From NCBI GenBank assembly GCA_025057615.1, contig JANXBF010000004.1, forward strand, positions 1-61,325: a stretch of DNA of 61,325 bases. The letters run 5' to 3'. Below, piece by piece: positions 32,999 through 40,064 of this stretch (the stretch's first letter is position 1; each line of letters begins with the position of its first letter). Both the position numbers and the translations under genes were made by a program. The DNA is from Candidatus Calescibacterium sp. (GTDB lineage: Bacteria; DRYD01). Below the pieces are notes generated by a model. The model saw only the letters and a list, made by a program, of their open reading frames with translations, did not search any database and was not told the origin of the DNA.

Positions 32999-33136
32999 AT
33001 GACTAAGAGGACTTTTCAACCAAATAATAGAAAAAGAAAGAAAAAACATGGGTTTCTATCAAGAATGTCTAATAAATCAGGAAGAAAAATAATAAAGAGA
33101 AGAAGAATGAAAGGTAGAAAAAGACTTTCAGTTTAA
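32999..33136 (+). CDS. rpmH: 50S ribosomal protein L34
   Basis: This 45-codon gene is missing from the ORF track because of its size. The product begins [20 protein letters not shown] and ends in KGRKRLSV, matching L34 along its whole length; it is extremely Lys/Arg-rich as expected for an rRNA-binding protein. AGGAGGT precedes the ATG and the stop overlaps the divIVA start (TAATG). L34 usually sits next to rnpA and dnaA or yidC at the origin; here it lies between ctpA and divIVA, and rnpA does not follow. Confidence 0.95.
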
Positions 33137-33681
33137 TGAATAACAATTTTTTAACTCCTTCTGATATATCAAGAGTCAAATTTAGTTTTTCTTTTAGAGG
33201 ATATAATACTCAGGAAGTTGATGAATTTCTCGAGCAAATAGAGAGAGAATATACAAGGTTGTGGAAGGAGAATTCTGAGTTGAGAAGCCAAGTTGATTTT
33301 CTGAGAAAAGAGTTGGAAGCCTATAAAAAAATGGAAAATATAATAAATGAATCTGTTATAACATCTAAAAAGTTGGCTGAAGATATAAAGCATCAGGCTC
33401 AAAGTGAAGCTAATTACATAATTTCCAAGGCTCTTAAAGAAGCAGAGGATATAAGAATTAATTGTCAAAAAAATGTGGCTAATCTAATCCAAGAAATAAA
33501 TAGGTTAAGAGAAATAAGAAATGATATGATTTTAGAAACCAAGAATTACCTTAATCTTTTAATTAATAAAATAGAAAATATTGAAAAAACGCTTGATAAT
33601 TATGATAATCTGCCTATGCTACTTGGGTTACCGATGCTACGCAATAAAAATGAAGATCAAAAAGGAGGTATAACATGTTAA
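33136..33681 (+). CDS. divIVA: DivIVA-domain coiled-coil protein
   Basis: DivIVA-type proteins bind curved membrane at poles or septa and recruit other factors. The 181-residue product has the N-terminal DivIVA signature TPSDISRVKFSFSFRGYNTQEVDEFLEQIEREY, then a long coiled coil from about residue 40 to 150. It may also be a GpsB/SepF-like cell-division accessory. Coupled to rpmH by TAATG and overlapping the following gene by 7 nt. Confidence 0.88.
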   Translation: MNNNFLTPSDISRVKFSFSFRGYNTQEVDEFLEQIEREYTRLWKENSELRSQVDFLRKELEAYKKMENIINESVITSKKLAEDIKHQAQSEANYIISKALKEAEDIRINCQKNVANLIQEINRLREIRNDMILETKNYLNLLINKIENIEKTLDNYDNLPMLLGLPMLRNKNEDQKGGITC

Positions 33682-34686: not shown

Positions 34687-35004
34687 ATGGAGACAATGGA
34701 ACTACATCAGGTTCTGAATATCCAAAAAATCGCTTTAGTTCTATCTATGCTTTTCACTATTTCAACTGTTTTACTATTAGTTTTAAATGTTTTTATGTCT
34801 GAAAGAGTTAAAGTTAATTTATCTAAGCAGGTAAGGAAAGAAAAAATAAGTTTCTCTAATGAAGATATAACTTTACCAAGTTTTGAAAAGACAGCTACCA
34901 AACAAAATAAGTCTCCTGATAGTTCAGAATTACTATCAAAAACTGATCAAAGAAAAGATACGCAGAGAGAAAGAAGTTCTATTTTCGATTTAAAAGATTT
35001 ATGA
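34687..35004 (+). CDS. small single-pass membrane protein, unknown
   Basis: The 105-residue product has one transmembrane helix at about residues 13-35 and a hydrophilic, Lys/Ser-rich tail. The SD GGGGAGG is strong. It sits between coaD and surE, overlapping surE by 4 nt (ATGA). No family is recognised. Confidence 0.55.
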   Translation: METMELHQVLNIQKIALVLSMLFTISTVLLLVLNVFMSERVKVNLSKQVRKEKISFSNEDITLPSFEKTATKQNKSPDSSELLSKTDQRKDTQRERSSIFDLKDL

Positions 35005-35996
35005 ATATACTTATTACTAATGATGATGGTTACAATTCAGAGGGTCTGATCTCACTTTACCAATCTTTTGGTAAAGATGAAAATAATATTCTTGATAGAT
35101 TGATTGTTGTTGCTCCTGATAGGGAAAGAAGCGTAAGTGGACATTCTATAACCTATCAGATTCCAGTCAGAATAAAAGAGATATATAAAGATGGCAAAAT
35201 GGAAATTTATAGCTGTACTGGTTCTCCAGCTGACTGTGTGATAATAGCCCGCGGATATCTAGAAAATAAAATAGATTTGATTATATCTGGAATAAATAGA
35301 GGAGCAAATATGGGAATGGATCTAACTGTATCTGGTACATTCTCTGCTGTCACTGAGGGATTTATATATGGTATACCTGGTATAGCAGTTAGTTTATTCC
35401 AGTATGATGATCCTGACTATACTTTTGCAAGTATTTTTATATATGATTTTGTCAGTAGATATAGGAATTTTATTGAAAAATTCAAAAATTTGTTGTTAAA
35501 TATTAATATTCCTCCATTTGTTAATTTGAAAAAGGATATGCCTCCTTTGGTAACATACCAGAGTCAATTTAGACATGTGGCTTACTTAGAGTCCAGACAT
35601 GATCCCAGGCAAAATCTTTATTTCTGGATATACTGGAAAAGGCATAAATTTGAACCACAAAAAGATTTCAAACAAAAAATCCTTGAATATTTCAATAATA
35701 ATATTGAAATAAGTGATGTTGAAGCAATATATAACAATTGCATCTCCATAACACCCATACTATTAGATTTCAATATTGTGAGAAACAAATATAAATTTGT
35801 TCAAATTGATTTTGAAGATTTTTATAAGGAAGTTAAAAATGTTATTCAGGATCTGTCTATGAAATCTTATGAACTTACTTTTTCTAAAATTAATTATTTT
35901 TCTAAAATTGACTCTCCAGATGTTAAATCTGGAGATATTGATATTCGGGCAGAAAAAAATGATAGCTTTTCAGTTATTATAGAAAAAGATAAATGA
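35001..35996 (+). CDS. surE: 5'/3'-nucleotidase SurE
   Basis: SurE is a metal-dependent nucleoside 5'-monophosphatase with stationary-phase and heat-survival roles. The 331-residue protein begins MNILITNDDGYNSEGL (the metal-binding DD pair at 8-9), and continues with APDRERSVSGHSIT, CTGSPADCV and SGINRGANMGMDLTVSGTFSAV. It is about 70 residues longer than E. coli SurE, with an extended C-terminal region of unknown role. No SD; translation is coupled to the preceding gene. Confidence 0.94.
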   Translation: MNILITNDDGYNSEGLISLYQSFGKDENNILDRLIVVAPDRERSVSGHSITYQIPVRIKEIYKDGKMEIYSCTGSPADCVIIARGYLENKIDLIISGINRGANMGMDLTVSGTFSAVTEGFIYGIPGIAVSLFQYDDPDYTFASIFIYDFVSRYRNFIEKFKNLLLNINIPPFVNLKKDMPPLVTYQSQFRHVAYLESRHDPRQNLYFWIYWKRHKFEPQKDFKQKILEYFNNNIEISDVEAIYNNCISITPILLDFNIVRNKYKFVQIDFEDFYKEVKNVIQDLSMKSYELTFSKINYFSKIDSPDVKSGDIDIRAEKNDSFSVIIEKDK

Positions 35997-36027
35997 ATTT
36001 TTGAAGAAAGGAGTATTATTAGTTTAT

Positions 36028-39000
36028 ATGTTTAAAAGAATAGTAATAATGTTTATTTGCTTTATTTCAGTTTTTTCTTTTGCTCAATACTATATACTTA
36101 CTGACCTTGGCAGGGGAGTGGAGAAGATAGAGGTGGATTTATTGACTCCCGAACCCATATATGTTCAAGATTCTCCAAATATGAAGGTTTATCTTATAAA
36201 ATTTAAAGATGGTAACCTACCTGTTGCTTCTGGTATGAGCGGTAGTCCATTAATTTCAAATGGTAAAGTGATTGGTGCTCTTTTTGCAGGATATTCTTTT
36301 CAGAGGGAACCACTTGCATTCGTTATCCCCATCGAATACATGGATAAAATAAGAAATAACTATACTGAAATGAATAAGTTAATTAATTTTGGGAATATCT
36401 CATCAAAATCTATACCGTTGGTTATTACTTTACCTGATGAAAAGTCTTTTAATCTATTTTCTAAGGATTTGAAAAATGTTTTTCCATCCAACACAGTTTT
36501 TAATTTTTTTTCACCTCAAATTGTGGATCCAAAAAATGATGATGGAGTTAAAAATAATTTTGGAGTTATAAGAGAAGGAAGTAGTATAAGTGTTGCTTTT
36601 GTTGATGGAGATATAAAGATATTTGGTACAGGAACGTTAACAAAGATTGATAAAGATGGGTATTTTGTTGCTTTTGGTCATTCTATGTTCAATTTAGGAA
36701 GCGTTAGTATGCCCGTTTATGAATCTAAAGTTATAACCATAGTAAATAGGTATGATGATTCTTTTAAGTTATCTGCTATAACAAATAAGAAAATAGGATC
36801 TATTATTTTTGATAGTAACTATGGTGTTTTAGGTAAAATAGGACAGGATAGTAAGATGATACCGTTAAACATGGAAATATCTGTTTCTAATAAGAAGATA
36901 AAAAACTATTCTTGTTACGTTGTTGATAACCAGAAGATTATGTATGTTTTGAGTTTGATTGCTTTTTATAATGCTATTAAAGACTATGTTCAATCTGATC
37001 TGCCTTATGAGTTTTATATGAGTTTGGGATTTATTAATGGCAGAGTTCAAAATATAACCATACCCTCTATTAATACACCTATTGAAAAATTGTTACCAAT
37101 GTTGTATGAGTATCTGAATTTCATTTCTAATATTCCTTCTCAGGATAATAGAGTTAGCTCTATAAAGTTTTCATTGAATATTAATCCTCAGAATTTGGGT
37201 ATAATAAACAATATTTCTATATCAAATAAGGAGGATAACAATATTAGTTTTGATATAAATTATTTTGATCCAATTTTAAGGCAGAGTGGCAAAGAAACTG
37301 TAAATGTTGTATTCCCAACCGAAGCTGCTAATGAAAGTTTGAGTTTTTCTGTTGGTGGGCAATATGATTTACCTCGAATGTTTGAAGAGCTTGGTATAAT
37401 GTGGACCCCTCCAAAAGATTTTAATCAATTAATTACTTTTATAAACTTTTTTTCTAGACCAGATCCCAAATCATTATCTGTTGTTATTTCCACAAAACTG
37501 TACGGTGCTATAAATTACGCCGGAAAGGTTATTCCTTTGACTACTCCTCAACTATATAAATACTATCTTCAATATAGTATGCCTTTCATATATCTTTCCT
37601 ACTATCCTGTTATAATAGTCCGTAAGACCAATTTTATACCACTTGGATATGATATATTCCAGATAGATATAAATGGTTCTATTTCAAAAGCTGAAAGAAA
37701 AAAACAGGAAAAAACAATTTTGTCATATATTAAAAATGCCAAAAATATGGATAATAATAGTTTTATTATTAAAAGAAATTCAAATAATGTAAATTCTGAT
37801 GATGTAGAACAAGAAATATATAATATTTTGAAAAATTACAATACTAAGACTAATAGAGAAGAAGAAAACACTAACAATAAAGGTAATCAAGAGCAAGAAA
37901 AAGAAGGCCCTGATACTGACTCCAATATGGTTAATCTCTCAAATTATGAAGATTTAGTTGATGGAACTCAAAATAATGTCGTAATAGATTATCAATCTAA
38001 TATAGCTTTTTCTCAGGAAAGTCTTGGAGAAATAAAAGTGGATAAACCACTATTTAAGATATTATATCACAATAACCAATTTTTAGGATTTTCTTATAAC
38101 TTTGATAATTCAACCAATTTATATGTTTTCAAAAATGATGGAAAAATAATAAATTCTGTTAAATTTGATGGTATATTTTCTGATGTTAGGTTGTCAAATA
38201 ATAAAATAGTGGCTTCTACTTATGAGGGTCAAATAATAATCATAAATCCAACAAATTTTTCGATTGAAAAAAAGATAAATACTGATTATGTTTTTCAGAA
38301 TGCAGATTTTTATAAAAACTATCTAGTGGCTACGAATATTAAATATCCATCTTCTTTGGTATTTTTTTCTCTTGATGGTAATAAGCTTAGAGAAGAGGTG
38401 CTGCCCTTTATAAATATTTCTAATTTACTTATTGATGGTGATAATATTTTGTTGGCCTGTTATGGAGGAATGGTATTGAAAATGAATGAAGATGAAAAAA
38501 AGTATTTTCAGACGTATCAGGAAAATGTCACAGCACTGGGAATTGTAGATGATAATTTACTTATTGGTACATACCCAAAACCTTATCTATATGTTATACC
38601 AAACTACAGAAATAGTACAGGATTTAACAGACCAATACTTTACGATGGATTCGATACCAATGGATACGTTGAGGATATAATGGTCTTTAATAATAAGATA
38701 TTCTTGAGTTATAAAGGAGGTAAACTATCAGTTTTTTCGATTAAAAAGGATGAGCTTTTGGGTGTAATAAATGACACATTTCAAAAAACTGATAATCTCA
38801 ACTGGGAAAAGAACATATCTGTTCCAAACTTCTATTGGTTTATACCTTTTGTCAAATCTTCTGAAAAATTTTATATTCCATATATATCTAACACGTTTAC
38901 TGTTATAAATTTTTCTAACAAATCAGAAAAAGGGTATTATATTTCTAAAGTTTTTGATTCTGGCCAACAGAAATATTTATATGACCTTGTTATAAGAGCT

Positions 39001-39759
39001 GAAGGGAATTATGATCTGTTTATAAGGTGGGGTAATAACCCCATAGTTGATCAGACCTGGACAAAATGGATTAGCTATAAAGATATTAACAAATTTAACT
39101 ACCAATATAGGTATTTTCAATACAAATTTATAATCTATCCTGGAACTACAATACATTCCATTTTCGGATTATTTGAAAAGATTAATTATAAACCATTTTT
39201 TATTATCGATTCTGGTAGGAAAGTGTATAATTCTAATGGGTCTATTAATGTTAGTTTATGGGATCCAAATGGTGACAAACTGAATGTTTATTTGAAATAT
39301 TATGACGGTAAAAGATGGATCGAGATTGATAAAAAACAGATCACAACTAAAAAAACAGATGTAAACACTCCTGACTTCTCTACTAATTTATCTCTCAATA
39401 TTTCAAAATTAAACAATAAGAAGGGTAAAATTAAACTAAAGATTGTTGTTGATGATTTACCCTTAAATCCCTCAAACTATTTTATTCAAGAACAAGAAAT
39501 ACAGATATTTATTGATAATTCTAAGCCAGTAATAAAAAAATATACATATGTAAATGGCTTGTTGAGAGTTTTAGTTGAGGATGATTCATTTGTTGAAGCC
39601 TTTGTCCAAAATGGTAAGGATATTATACCTATGAAACTTAAAAAAATAGAAAACAATGTTTATGAGTATATCTTAAATGTATCAAAATTGGATAAGCAGA
39701 TACAAATTATTGTAAAGGATGAAGCGGAAAATAATCAGGAGTTGAAGGTAATACTATGA
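36028..39759 (+). CDS. giant secreted S55 (SpoIVB-type) peptidase with C-terminal propeller-like region
   Basis: About 1243 residues. After a signal peptide (MFKRIVIMFICFISVFSFA) comes an S55 domain with the Ser motif GMSGSPLISNGKVIGAL near 75 and the His motif VAFGHSMFNLGSVSMP near 215, the arrangement of S55 proteins outside spore formers. A low-complexity linker rich in Asn/Glu near 620-655 is followed by a repeat-rich beta region (propeller-like, about 680-960) and C-terminal beta-sandwich segments with ..SKVFDSG.. and ..NSKPVIKKYTY... The track start TTG 36001 overlaps the SD; ATG 36028 begins a normal signal peptide. It is coupled to surE and the next membrane protein. Substrate unknown. 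Confidence 0.8.
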   Translation: MFKRIVIMFICFISVFSFAQYYILTDLGRGVEKIEVDLLTPEPIYVQDSPNMKVYLIKFKDGNLPVASGMSGSPLISNGKVIGALFAGYSFQREPLAFVIPIEYMDKIRNNYTEMNKLINFGNISSKSIPLVITLPDEKSFNLFSKDLKNVFPSNTVFNFFSPQIVDPKNDDGVKNNFGVIREGSSISVAFVDGDIKIFGTGTLTKIDKDGYFVAFGHSMFNLGSVSMPVYESKVITIVNRYDDSFKLSAITNKKIGSIIFDSNYGVLGKIGQDSKMIPLNMEISVSNKKIKNYSCYVVDNQKIMYVLSLIAFYNAIKDYVQSDLPYEFYMSLGFINGRVQNITIPSINTPIEKLLPMLYEYLNFISNIPSQDNRVSSIKFSLNINPQNLGIINNISISNKEDNNISFDINYFDPILRQSGKETVNVVFPTEAANESLSFSVGGQYDLPRMFEELGIMWTPPKDFNQLITFINFFSRPDPKSLSVVISTKLYGAINYAGKVIPLTTPQLYKYYLQYSMPFIYLSYYPVIIVRKTNFIPLGYDIFQIDINGSISKAERKKQEKTILSYIKNAKNMDNNSFIIKRNSNNVNSDDVEQEIYNILKNYNTKTNREEENTNNKGNQEQEKEGPDTDSNMVNLSNYEDLVDGTQNNVVIDYQSNIAFSQESLGEIKVDKPLFKILYHNNQFLGFSYNFDNSTNLYVFKNDGKIINSVKFDGIFSDVRLSNNKIVASTYEGQIIIINPTNFSIEKKINTDYVFQNADFYKNYLVATNIKYPSSLVFFSLDGNKLREEVLPFINISNLLIDGDNILLACYGGMVLKMNEDEKKYFQTYQENVTALGIVDDNLLIGTYPKPYLYVIPNYRNSTGFNRPILYDGFDTNGYVEDIMVFNNKIFLSYKGGKLSVFSIKKDELLGVINDTFQKTDNLNWEKNISVPNFYWFIPFVKSSEKFYIPYISNTFTVINFSNKSEKGYYISKVFDSGQQKYLYDLVIRAEGNYDLFIRWGNNPIVDQTWTKWISYKDINKFNYQYRYFQYKFIIYPGTTIHSIFGLFEKINYKPFFIIDSGRKVYNSNGSINVSLWDPNGDKLNVYLKYYDGKRWIEIDKKQITTKKTDVNTPDFSTNLSLNISKLNNKKGKIKLKIVVDDLPLNPSNYFIQEQEIQIFIDNSKPVIKKYTYVNGLLRVLVEDDSFVEAFVQNGKDIIPMKLKKIENNVYEYILNVSKLDKQIQIIVKDEAENNQELKVIL

Positions 39760-40064
39760 AAAAAGTGACTATAATATTTTGGGTAATTTTATCTCTATTT
39801 TTAATTGCTCTTTTTATTTCTCCTTTTTCTGCTCAAAAAATATATTTATTACTATCGAGAACATCTTTATATAATACTATAGATCTGAAATATAAACATA
39901 CTCATGAAACTGACGAAGCAAAAGAGTTAGTTTATTTTGAGAATGAATTTGTAAATCAGCCTTATGCCAACCCTATGGATTCATCTATTGAACTTATCCA
40001 GTTATCTTTATCGCTTACTGTTTTGTCTTTACTAGTAATCCAATTTAGAAAGGTAAGTAGGTAA
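39756..40064 (+). CDS. small two-helix membrane protein, unknown
   Basis: The 102-residue product has an N-terminal membrane helix (about residues 5-25, possibly a signal anchor) and a second hydrophobic helix near the C-terminus (about 80-96). Its start overlaps the end of the S55 peptidase gene (ATGA), so it may be a membrane partner. It stops 3 bp before the convergent secG stop. No family is recognised. Confidence 0.55.
   Translation: MKKVTIIFWVILSLFLIALFISPFSAQKIYLLLSRTSLYNTIDLKYKHTHETDEAKELVYFENEFVNQPYANPMDSSIELIQLSLSLTVLSLLVIQFRKVSR

Follow-up and report, generated by a model that had tools for sequence, protein, structure and literature searches.

Swapped order of the catalytic halves in an S55 protease-like protein fused to a propeller partner

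What is known of peptidase family S55 comes from a single sporulation checkpoint. What, then, is the function of an S55 domain encoded by Candidatus Calescibacterium sp., in the 61,325-nucleotide stretch of contig JANXBF010000004.1 analysed here (the window)? The first-pass annotation had placed this domain at the front of a giant secreted protein, in a genome without other spore genes and in a role outside sporulation that it took to be undescribed. The last two points agree with our results: Spo0A (Spo0A_C) was found neither in the window's assembly (83.7% complete) nor in relatives, while the control was found in B. subtilis, and a literature search, conducted without most subscription journals, returned no published description of a permuted S55 protein, the form described below.

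The domain lies in a single ORF, as annotated, which reads from TTG (36001-39759, + strand; 1252 aa) or from ATG (36028-39759, + strand; ~1243 aa for the fused protein). The ATG is the more likely start codon, because it is preceded by an AAAGGAG motif and leads into an AxA-type signal peptide, MFKRIVIMFICFISVFSFAQ; residue numbers of the window protein count from this ATG and equal the TTG numbering minus 9. The neighbouring genes in the window are surE, a gene for a 102-aa membrane protein, and secG. The annotated translational tie to both sides held for the 102-aa ORF, whose start shares 4 bp (ATGA) with the S55/propeller stop, an arrangement also present in the related species L029, but not for surE, which is separated by a 31-bp gap when the ATG start is used. 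Between its helices, the 102-aa protein (39756-40064) carries a His/Glu-rich stretch that is stronger in L029 (EHEHHHDEEE) and possibly metal-binding. Ahead of surE, 34687-35004 encodes a 105-aa membrane protein with a single helix, found in this genus alone, and a DivIVA protein (33136-33681; Pfam E 1.8e-31) lies close to the S55 gene in this Omp85-bearing lineage. A contig scan detected one close relative in genome contigs and no further relatives in viral contigs.

Table 1 Predicted features of the S55/propeller locus, in window coordinates
Feature	Position	Strand	Basis or remark
surE	35001..35996	+	upstream; neighbour conserved in family only, outside conserved module
Fused permuted-S55/propeller protein	36028..39759	+	full-length homologues in genus and family
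Sec-type signal peptide MFKRIVIMFICFISVFSFAQ	36028..36087	+	sequence inspection
Ser half of S55 (GMSGSP, S71), corresponding to C-terminal half of SpoIVB	36088..36372	+	PF05580, hhalign, 9lnf match
His half of S55 (AFGH, H218; D262), corresponding to N-terminal half of SpoIVB protease domain	36550..36927	+	PF05580, hhalign
C-terminal region of S55 unit, sequence-conserved in propeller-paired subfamily	36928..37812	+	alignment; coverage versus adjacency
Polar E/N/K-rich linker between the two fused proteins	37813..37920	+	sequence; varies between relatives
Propeller-partner half	37921..39756	+	partner-model matches 37921-38649 and 38650-39756; alignment
Blades of propeller half	~38026-38752	+	partner alignment; AlphaFold/Foldseek, moderate confidence
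R-x-GN/W-x-W domain of propeller half	~38900-39215	+	partner alignment; AlphaFold/Foldseek, moderate confidence
Ig-like domains of propeller half	~39220-39756	+	partner alignment; AlphaFold/Foldseek, moderate confidence
102-aa two-helix membrane protein, 4-bp overlap	39756..40064	+	genus-level neighbour only, outside conserved module

The Pfam S55 profile (PF05580) matched the window protein with an E value of 2.4e-7 (31.4 bits; gathering cut-off 25). The Ser motif GMSGSP (S71) precedes the His motif AFGH (H218), and the profile aligned accordingly in two pieces, positions 144-190 near residues 44-85 (Ser half) and positions 13-122 with residues ~198-295 (His half; E 9.4e-4). Ser before His was the order in all non-SpoIVB homologues with both motifs found (>40), which came from genomes of many different families, including Firmicutes, most of which also have SpoIVB, whereas His precedes Ser in 25/25 true SpoIVBs. 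The Ser halves of the permuted family and of SpoIVB matched with an hhalign E value of 1.4e-23, and the Ser half matched PDB 9lnf with an E value of 8.8e-13. Homology of the His halves is modest when taken alone (single-sequence Pfam E ~1e-3); between the permuted family and SpoIVB it gave an hhalign score of 29.3, a value reached by 0/150 column shuffles (12.5+/-2.4, maximum 20.2). Crossed comparisons of the halves by hhalign, permuted family against SpoIVB, failed, and a tree of the Ser halves set SpoIVB apart from the permuted proteins (support 0.998). On sequence evidence, a circular permutation of the window S55 domain relative to SpoIVB is well supported, and because SpoIVB has two barrels (PMC12502668), the window protein may form a permuted double barrel. 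AlphaFold returned a pLDDT of 34 for the S55 part, too low for a usable model, with only two sequences aligned (the window protein and one relative). Together with the signal peptide, the S55 match bears out the annotated S55 domain at the front of a giant secreted protein, but the arrangement is not that of SpoIVB, since the order is swapped, a reversal that the first-pass annotation had missed, and a PDZ domain is lacking.

In chymotrypsin, the acid residue lies 45 positions after the His. The nucleophile Ser and the base His were each invariant in 38/38 members of the permuted family, so that their retention in relatives, on which the annotation depended, was complete, and a third residue, Asp262, 44 residues after His218, was likewise invariant (38/38). 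In SpoIVB, Asn290 is invariant (25/25), and we propose that Asp262 is its equivalent, a pairing read by eye from an ungapped alignment, the automatic profile alignment placing the gap elsewhere. The SpoIVB crystal structure discusses Asp363 and Thr393, and in this 2025 structure Asp363 lies ~24 Å from His236, leaving the third catalytic residue open (PMC12502668). Both residues were considered as the conserved third residue of the permuted family and rejected, the positions being mostly Gly, and Ala/Ser. For the question left open by the SpoIVB structure, the permuted family names Asp262 as a candidate, and the invariant Ser, His and Asp support the prediction of an active protease.

The matches to the C-terminal half of the window protein (37921-39756) are separate secreted proteins, a family that combines a propeller with Ig-like domains (Reg_prop/SGL and Ig-like matches). 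The annotated repeat-rich, propeller-containing beta C-terminus is thereby backed by homologues, although its existence elsewhere as a separate partner had been overlooked. For this part AlphaFold reached a pLDDT of 57, with only the window protein and one relative alignable, and Foldseek returned propeller matches only. In other diderm lineages, the partner is encoded by a separate gene directly downstream of the S55 gene. Strong propeller matches were detected in 51/241 genomes; all 51 are among the 60 genomes with a permuted S55 (Fisher p 2e-43), and in 43 of them the propeller gene lies downstream of S55 on the same strand or is fused to it. Both models were built from adjacent pairs, and the fair test is therefore provided by the 17 propeller genomes outside model building, where S55 was present in 17/17 and adjacent in 14/17. 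Proteins matching to the end of the S55 model were adjacent to a propeller in 43/48 cases, and those whose match ended earlier in 1/17. The idea that unpaired S55 proteins are without the C-terminal region was rejected, as the region is equally long in them and only divergent in sequence. In the window's genus and family, S55 and propeller are one polypeptide. Since other lineages encode the C-terminal half as a partner protein of its own, the giant protein can be identified by homology as a gene fusion of S55 and its usual partner (a Rosetta-stone case), and the S55-propeller partnership is well supported by genome comparison. In the other family of the order, the counterpart of the fusion (L062:12992-16941) consists of two ORFs in different frames with 69 bp between them, the first of 883 aa and the second starting inside the propeller; the split may be genuine or due to a sequence error. 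In one genome (G230:C32:38132-41957), two tandem permuted S55 genes lie directly upstream of one propeller gene.

Of the genomes sampled, about one in four (60/241) had the permuted form, which seems confined to bacteria with an outer membrane. Omp85 was found in 59/60 of these genomes, the exception being 71% complete, and in the window's lineage; since Omp85 is present in most of the sample, the count is weak when taken alone. The Firmicutes offer a strong test of diderm restriction, both envelope types being present among them (41 genomes): a permuted S55 was found in 10/11 with Omp85 versus 0/30 without it (p 1e-8), while canonical SpoIVB occurs in both groups. Taken together, these comparisons support well a restriction of permuted S55 to diderm genomes. 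In 7/7 Firmicutes contigs with both genes, the permuted S55 gene lies beside BamA-Skp, and in five of them TamB directly follows S55, between it and BamA-Skp. This site fits the published outer-membrane gene cluster of diderm Firmicutes (Antunes 2016, PMC5007114). The gene often follows FlgA-FlgH-FlgI; in L134 and L136-L138, it stands between these P/L-ring genes and TamB-BamA-Skp-LpxD. Genes for the flagellar ring and for lipid A are part of the TamB-BamA cluster too, and the cluster therefore does not point to one exact process. Two diderm Firmicutes with a permuted S55 (G172 and G179) have no strong SpoIVB match and are presumably non-sporulating. No propeller was detected in diderm Firmicutes at E 1e-8, and their permuted S55s group with other unpaired proteins in the Ser-half tree. 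By this grouping they are a sister subfamily of the window protein's, different contexts going with different subfamilies, and it is by family that their evidence extends to the window protein, whose own gene does not adjoin TamB-BamA-Skp.

We consider it probable that the window protein is an uncharacterised periplasmic or outer-membrane protease module of double-membraned bacteria and not a spore protein. It would be a secreted Ser-His-Asp endopeptidase of S55 type whose Ser-bearing and His-bearing halves stand in circularly permuted order compared with SpoIVB, and to which a beta-propeller/Ig protein, its constant partner in other lineages, is fused. This second half may dock to the S55 unit at its C-terminal region and could present or gate substrates to the S71-H218-D262 active site. 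The module's site of action would be the periplasm or the outer membrane, and its task the assembly or quality control of outer-membrane proteins; outside the Firmicutes, such an envelope role is suggested by joint occurrence with Omp85, a protein present in most of the sampled genomes anyway. More tentatively, the chymotrypsin-like fold might occur here in a naturally arisen, circularly permuted form (Ser barrel before His barrel) with an intact triad, the mark of a propeller-partnered protease family that serves outer-membrane biogenesis in double-membraned bacteria; SpoIVB would then be a non-permuted relative with Asn290 in place of the acid. This broader reading is plausible, though we would not count on it. 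The protease-propeller pair, its fusion and the TamB-BamA-Skp linkage offer a testable entry to uncharacterised envelope biology.

Homology to SpoIVB could also point to a pathway of regulated intramembrane proteolysis outside sporulation, with the window protein as the site-1 protease: it would cut a membrane regulator in its periplasmic part and thereby trigger an M50 protease, as SpoIVB does. We regard this as unlikely: the PDZ domain of SpoIVB is absent from the window protein, this model does not predict a confinement to Omp85 genomes, and in 36 loci outside the Firmicutes no third gene family, M50, anti-sigma and sigma factors included, recurs beside the S55-propeller pair, except for an ABC-ATPase-like cluster near 6 of the 36, taken as chance. 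It is similarly improbable that the S55 half acts on the propeller/Ig half, releasing it or bringing it to maturity as an adhesin or coat protein, or that it is a degradative surface enzyme. SpoIVB is autoproteolytic (PMC12502668), and Ig-like domains with signal peptides are typical of surface proteins, but most lineages already encode the propeller separately, with an N-terminal hydrophobic signal of its own, which makes release unnecessary.

A vestigial catalytic centre, with the permuted domain serving as a structural scaffold, would fit the unusual centre of the SpoIVB crystal structure and its Asn290, the proposed counterpart of the Asp in the permuted family; the invariance of Ser, His and Asp across 38/38 divergent members makes it very improbable. 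Least credible of all is a lineage-specific giant acting with the coupled 102-aa membrane protein. The 4-bp overlap is conserved in the genus, and the linkage proposed by the first-pass annotation was indeed found in three genomes of that genus, but only there: in the sister genus the site is occupied by an unrelated gene of 544 aa, and the small protein is absent from that site in all other lineages examined. Coupling to the membrane protein was accordingly rejected as a conserved feature, and the envelope protease module is the reading that we retain.

How does this module compare with known systems? Like the window protein, SpoIVB (MEROPS S55, PF05580, TIGR02860, PDB 9lnf) is secreted and has homologous Ser and His halves with GMSGSP and GH motifs. 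In the broad sense, the window protein belongs to the S55 superfamily (PF05580), as judged from its Ser-half score, His-half homology and conserved Ser and His. It differs from SpoIVB in the swapped order of the halves, in having Asp262 at the proposed place of SpoIVB's invariant Asn290, and in its propeller partner. A PDZ domain precedes the protease in SpoIVB, whereas neither the window protein nor 16 aligned members gave a PDZ match. None of the SpoIVB hallmarks (PDZ before the protease, His half first, sporulating host) was found for the window protein, the host being judged from the 83.7% complete assembly, and the score against the SpoIVB equivalog TIGR02860 was 26.3 bits versus a cut-off of 305. 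The position of D262, 44 after H218, agrees by sequence with the acid ~45 after the His in the His barrel of the PA clan. With its partner fused, the window protein falls within the S55-propeller module as defined here (partner directly downstream or fused), while adjacency to TamB-BamA-Skp belongs to the Firmicutes subfamily only.

BamB and other periplasmic beta-propellers share the fold class of the propeller half, but the likeness is generic, BamB being one of many Foldseek matches and the partner proteins having no BamB family match. HtrA/DegP and other PDZ proteases are periplasmic Ser-His-Asp envelope proteases and may be analogous in role, with a different domain set (no trypsin-like or PDZ Pfam match here). 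Closer is Vpar_0521 of V. parvula, which has an S55 domain in a non-sporulating diderm and is numbered near TamB (Vpar_0526) and BamA (Vpar_0527). It was reported as SpoIVB plus DUF1090, without discussion of domain order, in the outer-membrane proteome and as conserved in diderm Firmicutes, its role being undetermined in that study (PMC5491611). From synteny in other diderm Firmicutes, Vpar_0521 is probably an orthologue of their permuted S55 proteins.
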